From positions 1 through 44,688 of IMG/VR virus record IMGVR_UViG_3300028536_000003: DNA of 44,688 nt; one strand, given 5' to 3'. The position numbers were made by a program, and so were the translations under genes. Numbering within the stretch: the stretch's first letter is position 1; every line of letters starts with the position of its first letter. Below are positions 7,798 through 44,688 of this stretch, one piece after another. This DNA comes from a virus. Below the pieces are notes generated by a model. The model was not told the origin of the DNA. It saw only the letters and a list, made by a program, of their open reading frames with translations, and did not search any database.

Positions 7798-8123
7798 CCG
7801 CCGCGCCCGTCGTGCTTACAAAAGATTTAGCCCACTACCTGGTCGAAATAGTCTTACCGCAACCGGATTCTAACTCTGCAGCAGATTATGTCTGTGCGTA
7901 CCATGCCATCTGCGATATTGCATCCGGCGCCATGGTCTGCAAGGTGGCAGATGAATGGCAATCAATGTTTACGGTTCCGGATTGCGATGATGAATTATGG
8001 TTCTGCCGTGGCGATACCTTTGAAGGGCCGCGACCGCCGCGCATGGATGACGTGGACTATTGGGATTGGTGGTGTTATGCCGAACCGCCAATTCTGCCGA
8101 GCATGCGAGCCGCCGCCAAATGA
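7794..8123 (+). CDS. Hypothetical protein, 109 aa
   Basis: ATGA overlap at both ends. The acidic protein is rich in Trp, Asp and Cys, especially MDDVDYWDWWCYAEPP near the C-terminus. It may be a compact alpha/beta domain; no family is recognised. The strongly acidic aromatic patch could mimic nucleic acid, which is speculation. Confidence 0.65.
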   Translation: MTAAPVVLTKDLAHYLVEIVLPQPDSNSAADYVCAYHAICDIASGAMVCKVADEWQSMFTVPDCDDELWFCRGDTFEGPRPPRMDDVDYWDWWCYAEPPILPSMRAAAK

Positions 8124-8329
8124 CCTACTCCATCACAACCCTAGACACTCTCCACACCTGGCGCTGGTCCACCCTCTCCAACGGCGCCATGTCCCTAGGC
8201 AGTCGGCCGAATACGACGATGACGGGGAGGGAGCTGGATCGGTTTAAGCAAATGGAGGGATTGGGGCTGACGGAGTTGGAGCCGGAGAACTGGAATAAGC
8301 GTTTGACGATTGAGGGGATGACAAAATGA
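8120..8329 (+). CDS. Hypothetical protein, 69 aa
   Basis: ATG 8120 overlaps the upstream stop. The sequence begins MTYSITTLDTLHTWRWSTLS, continues with a Ser/Gly/Thr loop and ends in a helix (GRELDRFKQMEGLGLTELEP). No motif. It belongs to the same coupled series and precedes two tiny membrane ORFs. Confidence 0.6.
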   Translation: MTYSITTLDTLHTWRWSTLSNGAMSLGSRPNTTMTGRELDRFKQMEGLGLTELEPENWNKRLTIEGMTK

Positions 8330-8433
8330 AATACGTTGCTTTAGTGATATGCGCATTGATTGCCGCATTCATGTCCTATACCGATTCGGACGGATGGGGC
8401 TGGTTTATTCTGCTCGCCCTGCTACTGGTATGA
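8326..8433 (+). CDS. Small membrane peptide, 35 aa
   Basis: ATGA overlaps on both sides. Residues 3-17 (YVALVICALIAAFMS) and 25-35 (GWFILLALLLV) are hydrophobic, with a short acidic turn between, like a membrane hairpin. Function unknown. Confidence 0.5.
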   Translation: MKYVALVICALIAAFMSYTDSDGWGWFILLALLLV

Positions 8434-8528
8434 TCGCCGGCCCCGCCTGCATCCTATACTTCGCCTTCGTCATGTGGCTGGTTTTGCGCGATGAGGATTG
8501 TGGGGATGAGGGAGCGGGAGTAGACTGA
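8430..8528 (+). CDS. Small membrane peptide, 32 aa
   Basis: Last ORF of the + operon, with ATGA overlap to the previous one. One hydrophobic helix (PACILYFAFVMWLVL) is followed by an acidic tail (RDEDCGDEGAGVD), suggesting the C-terminus stays in the cytoplasm. It is followed after about 70 bases by a strong terminator. Confidence 0.5.
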   Translation: MIAGPACILYFAFVMWLVLRDEDCGDEGAGVD

Positions 8529-8596
8529 TTGCGGCGCTTGGAAGGATGCCAGTCGCTATTCGCCTAGGGTCTACGCTAGTTCCTGCGATACGGACA
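8529..8596. other. Short non-coding stretch, nothing identified
   Basis: This segment lies between the last + gene and the terminator stem. CTAGGGTCTACGCTAG near 8560-8580 is weakly symmetrical. I see no gene, promoter or repeat that I can support. Confidence 0.5.
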
Positions 8597-8629
8597 AGCC
8601 CTGCTCGGTGCAAGCGAGTAGGGCTTTTT
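8597..8629 (+). terminator. Terminator of the + early operon
   Basis: AGCCCTGCTCG (8597-8607) pairs with CGAGTAGGGCT (8615-8625) around a 7-base loop with one mismatch and is followed directly by a T-run. It closes the operon that ends at 8528. Confidence 0.9.
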
Positions 8630-8660
8630 ACTTCTATCGACATATAGTAGAATTTATCTA

Positions 8661-8735
8661 TGTGAAGGTCAGTGGTTCAAATCCACTCGTGAGACCCGCG
8701 AGGGCCATGACGTAGCTCAGCGGTAGAGCATCACG
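8661..8735 (+). ncRNA. tRNA-like RNA with permuted halves (3' half first)
   Basis: The order is reversed relative to a tRNA. 8661-8665 TGTGA (anticodon-stem 3' strand) comes first. It is followed by variable loop AGGTC (8666-8670), T-stem AGTGG/CCACT around canonical loop TTCAAAT (8671-8687), then 3' acceptor CGTGAGA (8688-8694). A CCC-GCGA-GGG hairpin (8695-8704) leads to the 5' side. There 5' acceptor CATGACG (8706-8712) and TA at positions 8-9 precede D-stem GCTC/GAGC around loop AGCGGTA (8715-8729), A26, and TCACG (8731-8735). TCACG pairs with TGTGA at all five positions (one G-U), and both arms have textbook loops. The acceptor pairs well only at CGT/ACG next to the T- and D-arms and then carries mismatches. 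No anticodon loop is encoded contiguously. It is either a functional permuted tRNA-like RNA or two tRNA remnants. Confidence 0.6.
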
Positions 8736-8737
8736 CC

Positions 8738-8780
8738 CCGGCGCACCACGCTTTCGATAGTCTCTGGTGCGTCGGTTTTT
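8738..8780 (+). terminator. Terminator after the tRNA-like RNA
   Basis: CCGGCGCACCA (8738-8748) pairs with TGGTGCGTCGG (8765-8775) over eleven positions with one G-U, and TTTTT follows. It begins two bases after the tRNA-like 5' half, so that RNA would end here. It also faces the 3' end of the late operon. Confidence 0.88.
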
Positions 8781-9444
8781 ACCCAAAAACCCACTTCAAA
8801 ATCGAATCCCACCCAATCTCATGCCCCGTCTTAACGCCCAGTACGGCGATGACGAGGATCAGCAGGATCTTGCCACTCACTGCCTCCCAATTCTTCTGCA
8901 CCATGCCCCAGACGAACTTTGACGCGGCGTGCCAGAAATCGGACCAGCCTTTGGATGAGATGTATTGCTTGCGCAGCCAGGGCAGCAGCTCCTGCAACTG
9001 GCTCTGCGTATCTTGGATCAAGTCGAGCTGCTTAGTCTGAGCGGTCAGGACATCGGTCTGCTCGCCCTGCATTTTTATGATCTTGGCATTGTCGGCCTCG
9101 TTCTTTACAGCCGACGATTCACAGCCGACGATGTGGCGGTCGATCTTGCGCAGGGCCTTGTTCAGCGTCTTGCCCTGCGCCACTGTCTTTTCCTCAAGCG
9201 CCGATAGCCGGGCTTCCGAATCGATATTTTCGTTCCGGCGCGCCGCCTTCCGTCTCTCCGGCCCTGCAAACGGCTTCACGGCAGACATGGCGTATTCCTT
9301 CAATTGTGAGAAACGGACAGGGAGACGCTGAGTCCAGGCAAGCGCCAATCCAGCAAAAGCGAAGCCGGACGCAGACTCAAACCCCAGCACCGGCACTACG
9401 GCCGCCGCTGCGAGGGCGCCTGCGACGATCAGGGGCGCGGCCAT
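8779..9444 (-). CDS. Membrane-anchored coiled-coil protein of the lysis cluster, 221 aa
   Basis: Two hydrophobic N-terminal helices (about 1-37, MAAPLIVAGALAAAAVVPVL...) are followed by a basic stretch (GPERRKAARRN). A long coiled coil (about 75-160, including QTKQLDLIQDTQSQLQELLP) leads to a C-terminal transmembrane helix (GKILLILVIAVLGVKTG). It is the last gene of the late operon, overlapping the previous gene by 16 bases, and may start instead at the internal MSAVKPF. Position and topology resemble haemolysin XhlA- or spanin-like accessory lysis proteins, but there is no clear match. Confidence 0.65.
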   Translation of the reverse strand: MAAPLIVAGALAAAAVVPVLGFESASGFAFAGLALAWTQRLPVRFSQLKEYAMSAVKPFAGPERRKAARRNENIDSEARLSALEEKTVAQGKTLNKALRKIDRHIVGCESSAVKNEADNAKIIKMQGEQTDVLTAQTKQLDLIQDTQSQLQELLPWLRKQYISSKGWSDFWHAASKFVWGMVQKNWEAVSGKILLILVIAVLGVKTGHEIGWDSILKWVFG

Positions 9445-9988: not shown

Positions 9989-10483
9989 CTATTTGCCCGT
10001 TTTCGCCGCCATGAATTGCGCCATGGCAGGCATGATGTTCTGGATGGCGCGCTCGCCAAAGAAAAATCCCAAAACAAGGAAATTGATGACCCAAAAGGCT
10101 GATTGCATCCGGTCGCCGTCGAGTTTCCAGAGGCCGCTGAATACCTCAAAGTCCATGAAGGCGACGAAGTACGAGAATAGGGGCCGGAACGCGCCTCGTA
10201 GCAGCAGCAAGATCGGCCCGATGAGCGGGATACCCTTCAGGTCCGAAGCCGTGCCCTCCGAATCCTTGATGCGCTGATTCAGATTTTGTTCCGCCTCATT
10301 GGCCGCAGTATTGGCCGCCAAGGTGCGCTGCATTTCGATCTGCTGCGCGGCCATCTGAATATTGGCTTTTTGCTCCGGCGATAGATTCGGCGGCAGGTAA
10401 GCTTCGATGCCCTTGATGATTTCACCAGCGACCCCGGCAATACCGCCCGTTTCGCTGTTTACGATGTCTCTGATGATGCCCAT
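9989..10483 (-). CDS. Holin, GTA-type 3TM family
   Basis: The 164 residues match the layout of the GTA_holin_3TM family (PF11351-like). An amphipathic N-terminus with LPPNLSPEQKANIQMAAQQI (helix) is followed by a first apolar segment (GIPLIGPILLLLRGAFRPLF), an internal segment SYFVAFMDFEVF, and a last helix (SAFWVINFLVLGFFFGERAI). Holins assemble in the inner membrane and release or activate endolysin at the time of lysis. It lies between the lysozyme and other small membrane genes, as expected of a lysis cassette. Confidence 0.82.
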   Translation of the reverse strand: MGIIRDIVNSETGGIAGVAGEIIKGIEAYLPPNLSPEQKANIQMAAQQIEMQRTLAANTAANEAEQNLNQRIKDSEGTASDLKGIPLIGPILLLLRGAFRPLFSYFVAFMDFEVFSGLWKLDGDRMQSAFWVINFLVLGFFFGERAIQNIMPAMAQFMAAKTGK

Positions 10484-14101: not shown

Positions 14102-14652
14102 CACAATACCATCCATGCGGGAAGGAGCTTGTTAGCCTTCAAATGAGTCGATGCCCCTTGAAGGGTTAAAGAAAGCGGTGCAAATGGGCCGCAAAAAACG
14201 TCAGACCCGCCGCCAGCGTTGAGGACGATGTTCACGGGGTTGGCGGACGCATCTGTTTTGAAGATCAGGTATTCAAATCCATTCGGTACGCCCGACAATG
14301 CAGGCACATCGAAATTAACTGTCCCGGCCGTGGCGTCGATATAAACTACAACAGAAAGAGCGCCACTCGATCCCGCTCCCAATACTCCCCAGTGTGTCGG
14401 GTCTAGCGGAGGCGCAGTAACGGCATTCGTGACCGGAGAAATGCAGATGTACAGTCCGCTATTCACCGTCGAATATCCCGGGTAAACCACGTAATCATTG
14501 ACGGCGTAATTTCTACCGAAAACAAAACTGCCCCGGTCACTGAAATTGTTTAACCCAAATCCGTAAAAAACGAAGTCGTTGACGGCCTGCACCCACGGTT
14601 GGTCCATAACCGTGTTTTTATCAATCACCAGACCAAGGCTATCCGCGCTCAT
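14101..14652 (-). CDS. Tail-associated binding protein, 183 aa
   Basis: I start at ATG 14652 (TGATG overlap with the upstream stop) rather than 14673. Residues about 45-90 contain NYAVNDYVVYPGYSTV, then LYICISPV and DPTHWGVL, a Y-x-x-G/D-x-V...Y...P...W layout like small carbohydrate-binding modules of the CBM5/12 type found in phage tails. The remaining residues are beta-rich. It lies between the ATP-grasp gene and the secreted-type protein, upstream of the tailspike, so a host-recognition or baseplate role is likely. Confidence 0.65.
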   Translation of the reverse strand: MSADSLGLVIDKNTVMDQPWVQAVNDFVFYGFGLNNFSDRGSFVFGRNYAVNDYVVYPGYSTVNSGLYICISPVTNAVTAPPLDPTHWGVLGAGSSGALSVVVYIDATAGTVNFDVPALSGVPNGFEYLIFKTDASANPVNIVLNAGGGSDVFCGPFAPLSLTLQGASTHLKANKLLPAWMVL

Positions 14653-15968
14653 CAGTACACCCAATCCTTGCAATAGCCATGCTCTTGCAGTTGCGGAAGT
14701 TCATCCTTCAGCCGTTCGCCGATGTCGGTGCGATAGAATGGCGAATTTGGCATACTCACCTTTCCGATGTTCTTGTAGGCTTTCTTTACAGCCTTCGATA
14801 CGCTATCGGCACAGCCAGAAAAAACGGCGACGTAATCACCAGCCGAAACCGGAATTTCGGCATCAACAATCTTATTGCCATCCATCGTCGGCGCGACTCC
14901 CATCATTACCTCTGCCAAGTGCGTGTCGGCTTGGTCTACATCCTCAAGGTGATATATCGGGTATCCGTAAAGCTCTTTGTTCGTGGCCTTGGAATAAGGA
15001 AAGTCCGGTATCGCCATAACGACCCCAGCAACAACCTCCCAATCCACCATCAAAGAACTCTTTCCGTTGCACAAATCAAGCATCCAGTTTGCCACATCAC
15101 CATGATGCACGGAAAACTGAAGTTTTAGGGTTGGATCGCCGGGGCGCGCCGTCCACTCCAAGGGCCAGCATTGGCCATGTTCGTCCATGATCGCTGCCAC
15201 GTCGATATAGCCGATATGGCCCATTGCCATCAGAATTCCCTCACACGGCTTTAACAGGTAATCGGCAAGGGCGGAATCCGGCACATATTTGGCGATTGTG
15301 CCCATTTCCCCGGTAGAGGGTCCGAGTTCTCCATTGAACAGCTTTTTATGCTCGAAATTTTCCAGCCAATACGGCAGAAATCCTTGCGGTCCGATCCACC
15401 CGCCAACGGCAATTTCAACGCCTGGAACGAATTCTTGCAGAATAAACGAATCCTTTAGCTTCCCCAGTTCCTTCCACCGGGTTAACTGAAAGTTCATGTC
15501 GGCGGGATCTTTCGAGACGTAGGAAAGCGCCTTGTTTGGCTCATCGCCATTCGGTTTCGAGACATACCGCTTCCCCGTTTCCCGGACAAACTTGATGGCT
15601 TCGTCGTAGTCATCGAAAGTTTCCCCGGGGATCGTGTCAATGCCGCACTTTTGGAAAACGCCCTGCCCAAACTCCCGGTCCAATTCCAGCCGCGACGACT
15701 GATAGGAGGGGCCGAATACGCATCCGCCCTTTTTCCGGTAGGCGTCCAGTTCCTTTAGAAAGTCGGTGTTATCCGTCAGAAAAACCATATCCGACCATTG
15801 AAGATGCGGCTTCCAGTCCTTGACCATATCGGCAAACCCCTCGCCGATCTTGGAGCGATGGCCGTCATCCTCTGGCTTGATATACCACTTGACCGCGTGA
15901 CCGTCCTCAAGGGCGCGTATGGCGAAGTCCAGGCCCGCGCCGAATCCGTCAATGATGAGGATGTTCAA
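14652..15968 (-). CDS. ATP-grasp enzyme, PurD (GAR synthetase)-like
   Basis: The 438-residue protein has the full order of a phosphoribosylamine-glycine ligase-like ATP-grasp protein. It starts with a nucleotide-fold N-terminus (MNILIIDGFGAGLDFAIRAL), followed by a lid with ATP-binding Lys in KRYVSKPNGDEPNKA (about 132-146). LQEFVPGVEIAVGGWIG and NGELGPSTGEMGT match the GEE-x-S and GPNTGGMG motifs of PurD, and PLEWTARPGDPT matches its metal-binding FNxRFGDPE block. PurD joins glycine to phosphoribosylamine; this homologue diverges and may ligate another amino acid to an amine. It sits inside the virion operon, not with nucleotide genes. The start is TTG (position 15968) with AAGG upstream. 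Confidence 0.8.
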   Translation of the reverse strand: MNILIIDGFGAGLDFAIRALEDGHAVKWYIKPEDDGHRSKIGEGFADMVKDWKPHLQWSDMVFLTDNTDFLKELDAYRKKGGCVFGPSYQSSRLELDREFGQGVFQKCGIDTIPGETFDDYDEAIKFVRETGKRYVSKPNGDEPNKALSYVSKDPADMNFQLTRWKELGKLKDSFILQEFVPGVEIAVGGWIGPQGFLPYWLENFEHKKLFNGELGPSTGEMGTIAKYVPDSALADYLLKPCEGILMAMGHIGYIDVAAIMDEHGQCWPLEWTARPGDPTLKLQFSVHHGDVANWMLDLCNGKSSLMVDWEVVAGVVMAIPDFPYSKATNKELYGYPIYHLEDVDQADTHLAEVMMGVAPTMDGNKIVDAEIPVSAGDYVAVFSGCADSVSKAVKKAYKNIGKVSMPNSPFYRTDIGERLKDELPQLQEHGYCKDWVY

Positions 15969-33721: not shown

Positions 33722-33901
33722 TCAGTGCACGGAATCCCATTGTTCTTTTGGGCGCAGCGGCTCTTCGTAGTCCATGAACGCGATATACGGTCCGCCATAG
33801 ATCGTCCGGTCCATGTACTCCTTCCGGATTAGGTACTGAGAGACCGCCCGAATCGCTCGCCGGTTACGTAGTTCGCGGATAAACCTGCAATCTCGAATCA
33901 C
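33722..33901 (-). CDS. Hypothetical protein, 59 aa
   Basis: GTG 33901 overlaps the preceding TGA and is preferred to ATG 33979. The sequence MIRDCRFIRELRNRRAIRAV is basic and helical, followed by YGGPYIAFMDYEEPLRPKEQ. It ends two bases before the TerS ATG. Unknown function; possibly DNA binding. Confidence 0.6.
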   Translation of the reverse strand: MIRDCRFIRELRNRRAIRAVSQYLIRKEYMDRTIYGGPYIAFMDYEEPLRPKEQWDSVH

Positions 33902-34269
33902 AGCCTCACCTCCACCATCAAATGCACACAAGCCGGCGTATTCGTCCCAGGCGGCATCAGCAAAGTCTGCACCTTCCACCGATCCGCCGCGTATCCGAAC
34001 CTTGCGCCAGCAATCGGGTTCACTGGACGGTAGTTATAGCCTGAAGCGACGCCGGCAAACAAGCCGGCCTGCCAATGTACGCCCCAATCGTGACCGATGG
34101 CGGCATAGTTGGACTCGCGGCCTAGGCTGTTGCGAAATGCGCCTAGTTGCACATTGTACGCACTGCGCTCGCATTCGATACCGATGCCGAACGTGTTGTT
34201 GTTTGGGACTGCGCCTGTGTGTACCGACCATAGGTGTGCTACTGCCCAGACTGCGCTGCATAGTTGCAT
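33898..34269 (-). CDS. Putative exported beta-barrel-like protein, 123 aa
   Basis: ATG 34269 follows AGGAG (minus strand) after a longer but unlikely upstream frame. The N-terminus MQLCSAVWAVAHLWSVHTGA is apolar and may act as a short signal. The rest is aromatic/Gly-rich with strand-like segments (NVQLGAFRNSLGRESNYAAI, WQAGLFAGVASGYNYRPVNP, AGARFGYAADRWKVQTLLMP). The AFRNS...GxxxGYNxRPVxP pattern recurs in phage proteins of unknown function. Outer-membrane or periplasmic superinfection control is possible; first gene of the late operon. Confidence 0.65.
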   Translation of the reverse strand: MQLCSAVWAVAHLWSVHTGAVPNNNTFGIGIECERSAYNVQLGAFRNSLGRESNYAAIGHDWGVHWQAGLFAGVASGYNYRPVNPIAGARFGYAADRWKVQTLLMPPGTNTPACVHLMVEVRL

Positions 34270-34615
34270 TTCCTGTACTCCTTCATTGCCTGTGCCGATA
34301 GTACGCCTGAGTTGAGGGGAAGAAAAGGCGCATTGGAAATTTTCAGCAAGACAGGAGAGAGGGTCTGTCACATTTTCACCGAATTAATTTTCCCCTCCCC
34401 CGGGGTCAGAAAACCGCCGGCCAGGTTTCCCGGCAAAACGTCTGCTCAGGCCCAGACCTTGACGCCTGATCCTGCCGGCCTCGCGTCTGGCACTTACCCC
34501 AGACGTTACCGTTCGTCGGTTTTGATCGGGGCCAATAATCTTCTACTGCGGATAATGGGGCGTTATGTTAAGTATAAATAACTATCGTCATGCGGTTATT
34601 AATAGTTTTTGTTAA
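34270..34615. other. Non-coding stretch with paired CGTCTG hairpins and AT-rich tract
   Basis: No convincing gene. CGTCTG (34439-34444) faces CCAGAC (34452-34457), and CGTCTGG (34484-34490) pairs with CCAGACG (34499-34505): two hairpins sharing one motif. From about 34555 to 34620 the DNA is AT-rich (taagtataaataactatcg and gttattaatagtttttg), a possible unwinding element. The late promoter should lie in 34270-34939. Confidence 0.55.
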
Positions 34616-44225: not shown

Positions 44226-44688
44226 ATGAATGAGGGGAAGGAAGTCGTAACCAGTTACAAGGGCTTCGATGCGGACATGAAGTGCCGTGGATTCGCCTAT
44301 AAAGTCGGCGAAACCTATACGCATGCCGGCACAGTCTCCAAATGCAATTCCGGTTTCCATGCCTGTGCCTATCCGCTGGACGTGCTGGCCTATTATCCCG
44401 CAGCCGGTTCCAATTTCGCCGTGGTCGAACAGGCCGGCACTTTGGATCGCGCCACGGACGATTCCAAGATTGCCAGCTCGTCCATCAAAATCACGGCTTC
44501 CATCGGTCTGCCGGGACTCATCAAGGCAGCGATTGAGTACACTTTCAGCCGAGTAAATCCGGCAGTAGGCGATAACAATAAGGCCGACAGTGGCGCGGCC
44601 TCGAACAGCGGCGACAGTGGCGCGGCCTCGAACAGCGGCGACAGTGGCGCGGCCTCGAACAGCGGCGACAGTGGCGCGGCCTCGAACA
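44226..44688 (+). CDS. Repeat protein, N-terminal part (continues at base 1)
   Basis: GGAGAAG precedes ATG 44226. The first 120 residues are a globular domain: VTSYKGFDADMKCRGFAYKV, TYTHAGTVSKCNSGFHACAY, PLDVLAYYPAAGSNFAVVEQ and SKIASSSIKITASIGLPGLI. These are the hallmarks of a common but uncharacterised phage/prophage family. From residue 122 the nine-residue SGAASNSGD repeats begin and run off the end of the window. With the C-terminal part at 1-355 the whole protein is about 257 residues, depending on repeat number. It is the promoter-proximal gene of the early + operon. Confidence 0.88.
   Translation, partial: MNEGKEVVTSYKGFDADMKCRGFAYKVGETYTHAGTVSKCNSGFHACAYPLDVLAYYPAAGSNFAVVEQAGTLDRATDDSKIASSSIKITASIGLPGLIKAAIEYTFSRVNPAVGDNNKADSGAASNSGDSGAASNSGDSGAASNSGDSGAASN
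44589..44688 (+). repeat. 27-bp in-frame tandem repeat, right part
   Basis: Three full units and one partial, all ending GAC where complete. The last 44 bases are identical to bases 1-44, and aligning them keeps the reading frame (position 44645 = position 1). The true copy number may be larger than the sum seen if an assembler collapsed the array. Confidence 0.97.

Follow-up and report, generated by a model that had tools for sequence, protein, structure and literature searches.

Positions 8661-8735 of the window, as we call the whole 44,688-nucleotide stretch of phage DNA that was analyzed, hold the parts of a tRNA in permuted order: the 3′ strand of an anticodon stem is followed by a five-base variable loop, a T-arm, a 25-nt hairpin, TA, a D-arm and the 5′ strand of the anticodon stem (Table 1). 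From the sequence, we give about even credence to the view that this unit is a stripped, Ro60-less offshoot of a class of permuted tRNA-like units present in other phages, with its tRNA elbow intact. It would then be a tRNA-derived module in which the T-arm, a closed hairpin and the D-arm are held by an anticodon-type stem. Its acceptor is imperfect, and the basal stem that binds Ro60 is missing along with the anticodon loop, both either lost or never acquired. Descent from the permuted class, most likely the origin of the unit, is favored by its layout, its undamaged arms and its anticodon stem; the state of the acceptor and the lack of a basal stem and of Ro60 speak against its still belonging to that class.

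Table 1. Features of the permuted unit and its flanks in the window
Feature	Position	Strand	Basis
Intrinsic terminator upstream of the unit	8596..8626	+	terminator scan
CTATCGA, left arm of a 7-bp inverted repeat enclosing the unit (right arm TCGATAG, 8754-8760)	8634..8640	.	repeat search
Predicted hairpin CATATAG/CTATGTG, 8641-8647/8658-8664, 10-nt loop	8641..8664	+	minimum and centroid fold of 8628-8785
TGTGA, corresponding to the 3′ strand of an anticodon stem (tRNA positions 39-43)	8661..8665	+	sequence; 5/5 pairs with 8731-8735
AGGTC, five-base variable loop (44-48)	8666..8670	+	sequence
T-arm AGTGG-TTCAAAT-CCACT, 5/5 pairs	8671..8687	+	sequence; descriptor scan; inside YrlA match
Acceptor-equivalent hairpin, gap CGTGAGACCCGCGAGGGCCATGACG (25 nt)	8688..8712	+	fold and pair count
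TA (8713-8714) and D-arm GCTC-AGCGGTA-GAGC (8715-8729), 4/4 pairs	8713..8729	+	sequence; descriptor scan
A (8730, equivalent of A26) and TCACG (8731-8735), anticodon-stem 5′ strand (27-31)	8730..8735	+	sequence; 5/5 pairs with 8661-8665
Terminator-like inverted repeat 8738-8748/8765-8775, then TTTTT	8738..8780	+	repeat search; sequence

Every element named by the original prediction was found in its place when the window was read, and the five-pair anticodon stem that it had proposed does close, with one G-U among its pairs. The spacings within each half match what we take to be those of a canonical tRNA. By the numbering that we assume, the bases of the elbow and core are also present (G18-G19 in the D-loop, U54-U55-C56-A58 in the T-loop), as are the partners of the tertiary contacts U8/A14, G15/C48, C13-G22/G46 and U12-A23/A9. 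Because these contacts could form, a transcript would most naturally act by mimicking a tRNA corner: enzymes that act on the tRNA elbow could bind or modify it, and it would be neither chargeable nor able to decode. To judge by their letters, the T-arm and the D-arm are too perfect for chance; what chance could account for is the bringing together of two tRNA halves. On either side the tRNA-like letters go no further than the anticodon stem, which counts for the offshoot reading, and no canonical anticodon loop or partner strand was found upstream by an arm search or downstream by reading the sequence. ARAGORN called no tRNA gene in the window, and Rfam at gathering level gave no match in its region.

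The hairpin in the acceptor position is capped by CCC-GCGA-GGG (8695-8704) and sets CGT (8688-8690) opposite ACG (8710-8712). In the strict acceptor register one more pair forms, for a total of 4/7, in line with the weak pairing at CGT/ACG plus scattered positions that had been pointed out earlier. The best fold of the hairpin, CGTG-G-CCC/GGG-C-CATG with two bulged A, has a free energy of -8.4 kcal/mol. Compared with shuffles of its own letters it gave a z of -0.96, against a mean of -3.45 for permuted units, which mostly have 6-7 acceptor pairs and which, for the comparison with hairpins of tandem junctions, had been pre-chosen for at least five.

Enforcing the T-arm, the D-arm and the anticodon stem yielded -21.9 kcal/mol versus a free minimum of -22.9, which we counted for the offshoot reading; with the strict acceptor register imposed, the tRNA-like fold reached only -19.0 kcal/mol, which we counted against it. 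The 77-nt module had a z of -0.83, with 39/200 shuffles equally stable. Longer stretches gave z values of -2.18 and -2.36, each matched in stability by 3/200 shuffles, and both include the terminator hairpin. The T-arm was broken in the free folds of the 77-nt module and of 8628-8785, one longer fold retained three of its pairs, and the pair probability of the T-stem was 0.17-0.30. In the fold of 8628-8785 the anticodon stem was displaced by the hairpin predicted just upstream, which competes with the TGTGA/TCACG pairing.

Dozens of permuted T-then-D units were found in other phages. A scan of viral contigs for a T-arm followed, after a gap of 12-42, by a D-arm gave at least 120 stretches. Among the matches listed, 20 after deduplication (19 and the window) had no overlapping tRNA call, and 18 of them showed 5-7 acceptor pairs in a fixed register; the window had 4, and L071 had 2, being complementary when its sequence was read with the register shifted by one base. 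By sequence, a T-then-D arrangement that lacked a tRNA call was nearly always a permuted unit in that sample.

Pairing was compared across 26 of these units, hand-picked at one unit per record. Left out were doubtful units (such as L014, L050, L059, L089, L090, L093, L099 and L117), any additional unit from a record already represented, and near-duplicates (L139 and L143 among them). Acceptor positions 67-72 were paired in 21-26 of the 26, with 5-6 pair types each and against shuffle means of 10-12, a covariation inflated because acceptor pairing was among the grounds for choosing the units; position 66 hardly varies and is hence uninformative. The anticodon pairs had played no part in the selection. 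Pairs 27-43 and 28-42 were kept in 26/26 and 25/26 units, with 4 types each and shuffle maxima of 19 and 17, and pair 29-41 in only 14/26 (shuffle maximum 16). The acceptor and the outer anticodon pairs covary across the phage permuted units.

The window shares with such units (for example those of Caulobacter phage CcrPW [L058] and Xanthomonas phage Olaya [L150], L120, L078 and L112) the order of its parts, canonical T- and D-loops and anticodon-stem strands that pair across the unit. They differ from it in having mostly 6-7 acceptor pairs, often a full anticodon arm, and flanks that pair with each other (mean z -2.7 in the 26 units, with 13/26 below -2). The full-length YrlA model matches several phage units with their flanks. 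A self-splicing or BHB-like motif had been considered for the phage flanks and was replaced by a Y-RNA basal stem because the full YrlA model fits L120 together with its flanks.

The Ro60 domain TROVE was detected in 9/24 and 5/11 listed unit records, that is, in 14/35 including the doubtful ones and the window's relative, and in 0/24 control records with ordinary tandem tRNAs (Fisher p 3e-4); many unit records are fragments, which makes the absence of TROVE from a given record weak evidence. In phages CcrPW and Olaya, unannotated units lie upstream of a gene annotated as “hypothetical protein”, the product of which matches TROVE and a Ro60 vWA domain above cut-off. By eye, several Y-RNA- or permuted-tRNA-like units apparently stand in a row at L150:2520-3128 (Olaya) and L152:1280-2140 (CcrPW).

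The recognized architecture to which the window's layout corresponds is that of YrlA RNAs (RF02553; PDB 6CU1). The original prediction was right about the permuted order; it is the YrlA order that provides the precedent, not the algal permuted tRNA genes or the permuted tmRNA that it had named. YrlA RNAs are described as being 90-150 nt long. Their 5′ and 3′ ends form a long stem that binds Rsr, and a further domain looks like the D, T and acceptor arms; dihydrouridine and pseudouridine are made in YrlA by DusA and TruB, and YrlA tethers PNPase (PMC8394870). The Y RNA of 6CU1 is reported elsewhere to superpose on tRNAs by way of a circular permutation (PMC11472068), and a third source considers that the YrlA tRNA-like domain might, as one possible role, inhibit an anticodon nuclease competitively (PMC7790460). 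Phage Ro60 is mentioned in two articles (PMC7824862, PMC7765460). The unit in the window has the T-arm, the closed acceptor-type hairpin and the D-arm in the same order, a circular tRNA permutation. It differs from YrlA in that no end-to-end Ro60-binding stem was found and no Ro60 in the record, in its imperfect acceptor and in a score far below the gathering level.

In Rfam's evalue mode, YrlA was the only family reported, at 8663-8733 and model positions 23-85 of 114, with 22.7 bits and an E of 0.024 for 601 bases searched; the gathering score is 69 bits. Phage permuted units scored about 19-48 bits, all below gathering, including those from TROVE-carrying records. The junction of two complete ordinary tRNAs in L043 reached 30.5 bits, and we therefore discarded the YrlA score as support for the window unit, as it does not discriminate.

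This failure to separate the window from a real junction favors the main rival to the offshoot reading, which we regard as somewhat unlikely: that the unit consists of the fused remnants of two ordinary tRNAs from a lost array, one having kept its 3′ half and its successor the 5′ half, with anticodon-stem strands that match by chance. Ordinary tandem junctions have the same sequence of T-arm, about 20 nt and D-arm, and the top-ranked phage blast match covering both halves was such a junction, that of tRNA-Ile and tRNA-Met in Erwinia phage ChrisDB (75.8% over 65 nt, E 0.03). The absent basal stem fits two remnants, as does the acceptor, since at least 4 of 7 pairs formed in about 41% of cross-combined tRNAs, making the window's 4/7 chance-like; 4/7 is also the commonest value in true junctions (20/71 among the matches listed). 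The unit departs from tandem junctions in lacking the outer halves and CCA and in having a paired anticodon stem, although the missing CCA after the first half says little, CCA being shown by 596/906 phage tRNAs as cut out by ARAGORN.

Several observations speak against two remnants. Five anticodon-stem pairs of five occurred in 3/391 tandem junctions fitting the descriptor (0.8%), in 2369/120,756 cross-combinations of the halves of 348 unique phage tRNAs (2.0%) and in 4/150 adjacent phage tRNA pairs (2.7%), that is, in about 1-3% of cases; the figure of under 1 percent given in the original prediction ranges from about right to a little low. In 34/391 tandem junctions the gap hairpin equalled or exceeded the window's in stability, and 1/391 combined this with a complete anticodon stem. 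C1 and A72 are each present in about one phage tRNA in nine (98/906 and 107/906), which we counted for the offshoot reading. Moreover, both truncations would have had to land exactly at the edge of the anticodon stem, and no trace of the outer tRNA halves was found on either side.

A genuine YrlA Y RNA, served by a host-encoded Ro60 (Rsr) through an overlooked basal stem such as 8634-8640/8754-8760, seems improbable to us. The module does match the YrlA model, but the Rfam match is limited to the part of the model given above. The enclosing 7-bp repeat was equalled by 32/2000 shuffles; it is possibly a closing stem, a weak candidate that chance may have produced. Its right arm sits within the loop of the downstream terminator-like repeat, and pairing between the two flanks was no better than in shuffles (z +0.16). 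TROVE (PF05731) had no match in the window record at E 0.001 or at E 10. It is likewise missing from 21/35 unit records of other phages, which speaks for the YrlA reading. The window's own record is probably a near-complete circular genome cut within a repeat, to judge from its ends: 1-180 and 44560-44688 belong to one array of a 27-bp repeat in the same gene, with a terminal identity of 44 bp. With both ends in this repeat-bearing gene, little of the genome is likely to be missing, and Ro60 is probably truly absent.

The surroundings are those of a compact unit placed between rightward and leftward open frames. The terminator that the original prediction saw just upstream was recovered by the terminator scan, and the repeat search located the second terminator-like repeat where it had been placed, two bases past the unit; the scan lists the upstream one alone, as the 16-nt loop of the 8738-8775 repeat exceeds its limit. 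The proposed TAGAAT box is present at 8648-8653, but a promoter scan of 8300-9100 returned no site. Elsewhere in the record, 14652-15968 (-) matches GARS_A (ATP-grasp, PurD-like) in Pfam above cut-off, with GARS_C just below, and 33898-34371 (-) has a PHROG match to a PagP-like protein (lipid A acylation) in a phage.

A single relative was found, IMGVR 3300012924_000155 (loci L002, L126, L131 and L137), and it is identical over the whole unit, so that TGTGA/TCACG yields no covariation signal. It was also the only match to a pattern in which the tRNA-conserved bases and a portion of the anticodon stem were fixed. No match was obtained by blast of the 301-nt region against phages, in the plasmids searched for the unit or, with a first exact pattern of the unit, in bacterial genome contigs. 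A search with 9989-10483 brought no relative, and L132-L136 are distant lysozyme relatives. In the named phages that come closest in terminase and portal (MW202796, OK172329 [1-50000 of 50121] and MW202785), the descriptor detected no such unit; its one row in MW202785 lacks canonical arms.

The unit lies within a block, at about 7801-9100, that is 94-100% identical to the relative, while the rest of that record is mostly diverged or unalignable, with some shorter stretches at 77-100%. The shared block suggests a recent exchange between the two phages. It would also agree with a scar of an attachment site or of recombination, in which tRNA pieces taken up by a former integrase now lie in a recombination block. 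We hold this to be very improbable: the window record has no tyrosine integrase match, and an exact pattern of the window's D-arm, anticodon-stem ends and variable loop matched no intact bacterial tRNA in genome contigs (one genome per species). The attP reading was set low for these two reasons, and an att core would not be expected to yield the permuted order.

Circularly permuted tRNA genes of algae and archaea have been reviewed (PMC3978253); among titles and abstract openings of open-licence PMC papers, a scope outside which subscription papers and preprints fall, none reported permuted tRNA genes in phages. The window unit resembles those of red algae and archaea in that the 3′ half precedes the 5′ half, and differs from them in having no anticodon loop or complete arm after joining and an acceptor of 4/7 rather than seven pairs. 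A functional permuted tRNA gene, whose product is closed into a circle by ligation and cut open in the acceptor loop, is scarcely credible despite the layout and the complete anticodon arms of other phage units, and the processed tRNA of the original prediction is likewise unsupported, given the lack of a canonical anticodon loop on either side, the 4/7 acceptor and the lack of a match to RtcB or a T4 Rnl1-type ligase in the window record, although a host ligase could serve. RtcB and Rnl1-type ligases were found in only 3/30 and 1/25 of the records searched and are not general to the permuted class.

Several features of the phage units were noted in passing. Among the 45 units outside the window, 20 have a complete 5-pair anticodon stem with a 7-nt loop, U33 and a purine at 37, as the best of 18 registers per unit in a search made without a shuffle control. 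In 17 of the 20, the 3′ half supplies two or three stem bases, placing the break inside the anticodon stem. Fifteen of the 20 are, by T-arm start, L006 1783, L018 3028, L031 5901, L043 1415, L058 385, L061 7224, L076 2730, L078 1666, L100 3365, L109 8162, L112 2772, L114 5887, L120 1914, L138 5335 and L144 292. Their anticodons span many amino acids, ATT and ATG looking unusual. By sequence, these units look like permuted tRNAs set within Y RNAs.

Two flank types, named after inspection of the sequences, recurred: ACAGCRA upstream with a trailer containing GTT or CTG (L018, L031, L102, L109 and L114), and ATGCTTATTTCT upstream with an AGCT..CC trailer (L006, L024 and L112). A unit of Enterococcus phage PEf771 (L151:1480-1610) looks like the ACAGCRA type. 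TROVE had no match in the eight records in which the two types were defined, and units with ACAGCRA or ATGCTTATTTCT flanks may have a different partner protein.

Other unusual tRNA-like RNAs were seen in the same material. Normal-order tRNA-like sequences without an ARAGORN call, some with inserts in the anticodon region, occur in Littlefixvirus, a group of Pseudomonas phage (L146:1462-1677 and L147:1422-1531); a CTGATGAG motif upstream of them is suggestive of hammerhead cores. At L038:1730-1879, in a tRNA-rich viral contig, a match to permuted tmRNA (RF04321, 80.1 bits) overlaps a stronger one to cyanobacterial tmRNA (116.6 bits). GOLLD RNAs lie near tRNAs and T-then-D arrangements in viral contigs at L014:5852-6267 and L112:9181-9694.

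A bolder reading, which we consider doubtful, is that permuted tRNA genes form a wide class in phages, for the most part unannotated, and that many of them have a full anticodon arm, with the break inside the anticodon stem, and Y-RNA-like stems on their flanks. The window unit would then be a minimal descendant of that class, reduced to the elbow, independent of Ro60 and retained as a tRNA decoy. Under the offshoot reading, a relic is just as possible. Should the RNA be produced and maintained, a small phage would have a Ro60-less mimic of the tRNA corner, the Y-RNA tRNA mimic in its simplest form, and with it a natural experiment on the elbow by itself as a decoy, a modification sink or an RNA stabilizer. 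The wider phage class, covarying by sequence and in many cases equipped with anticodons, poses the question of whether its members would be tRNA-carrying Y RNAs or tRNA genes that require ligation.
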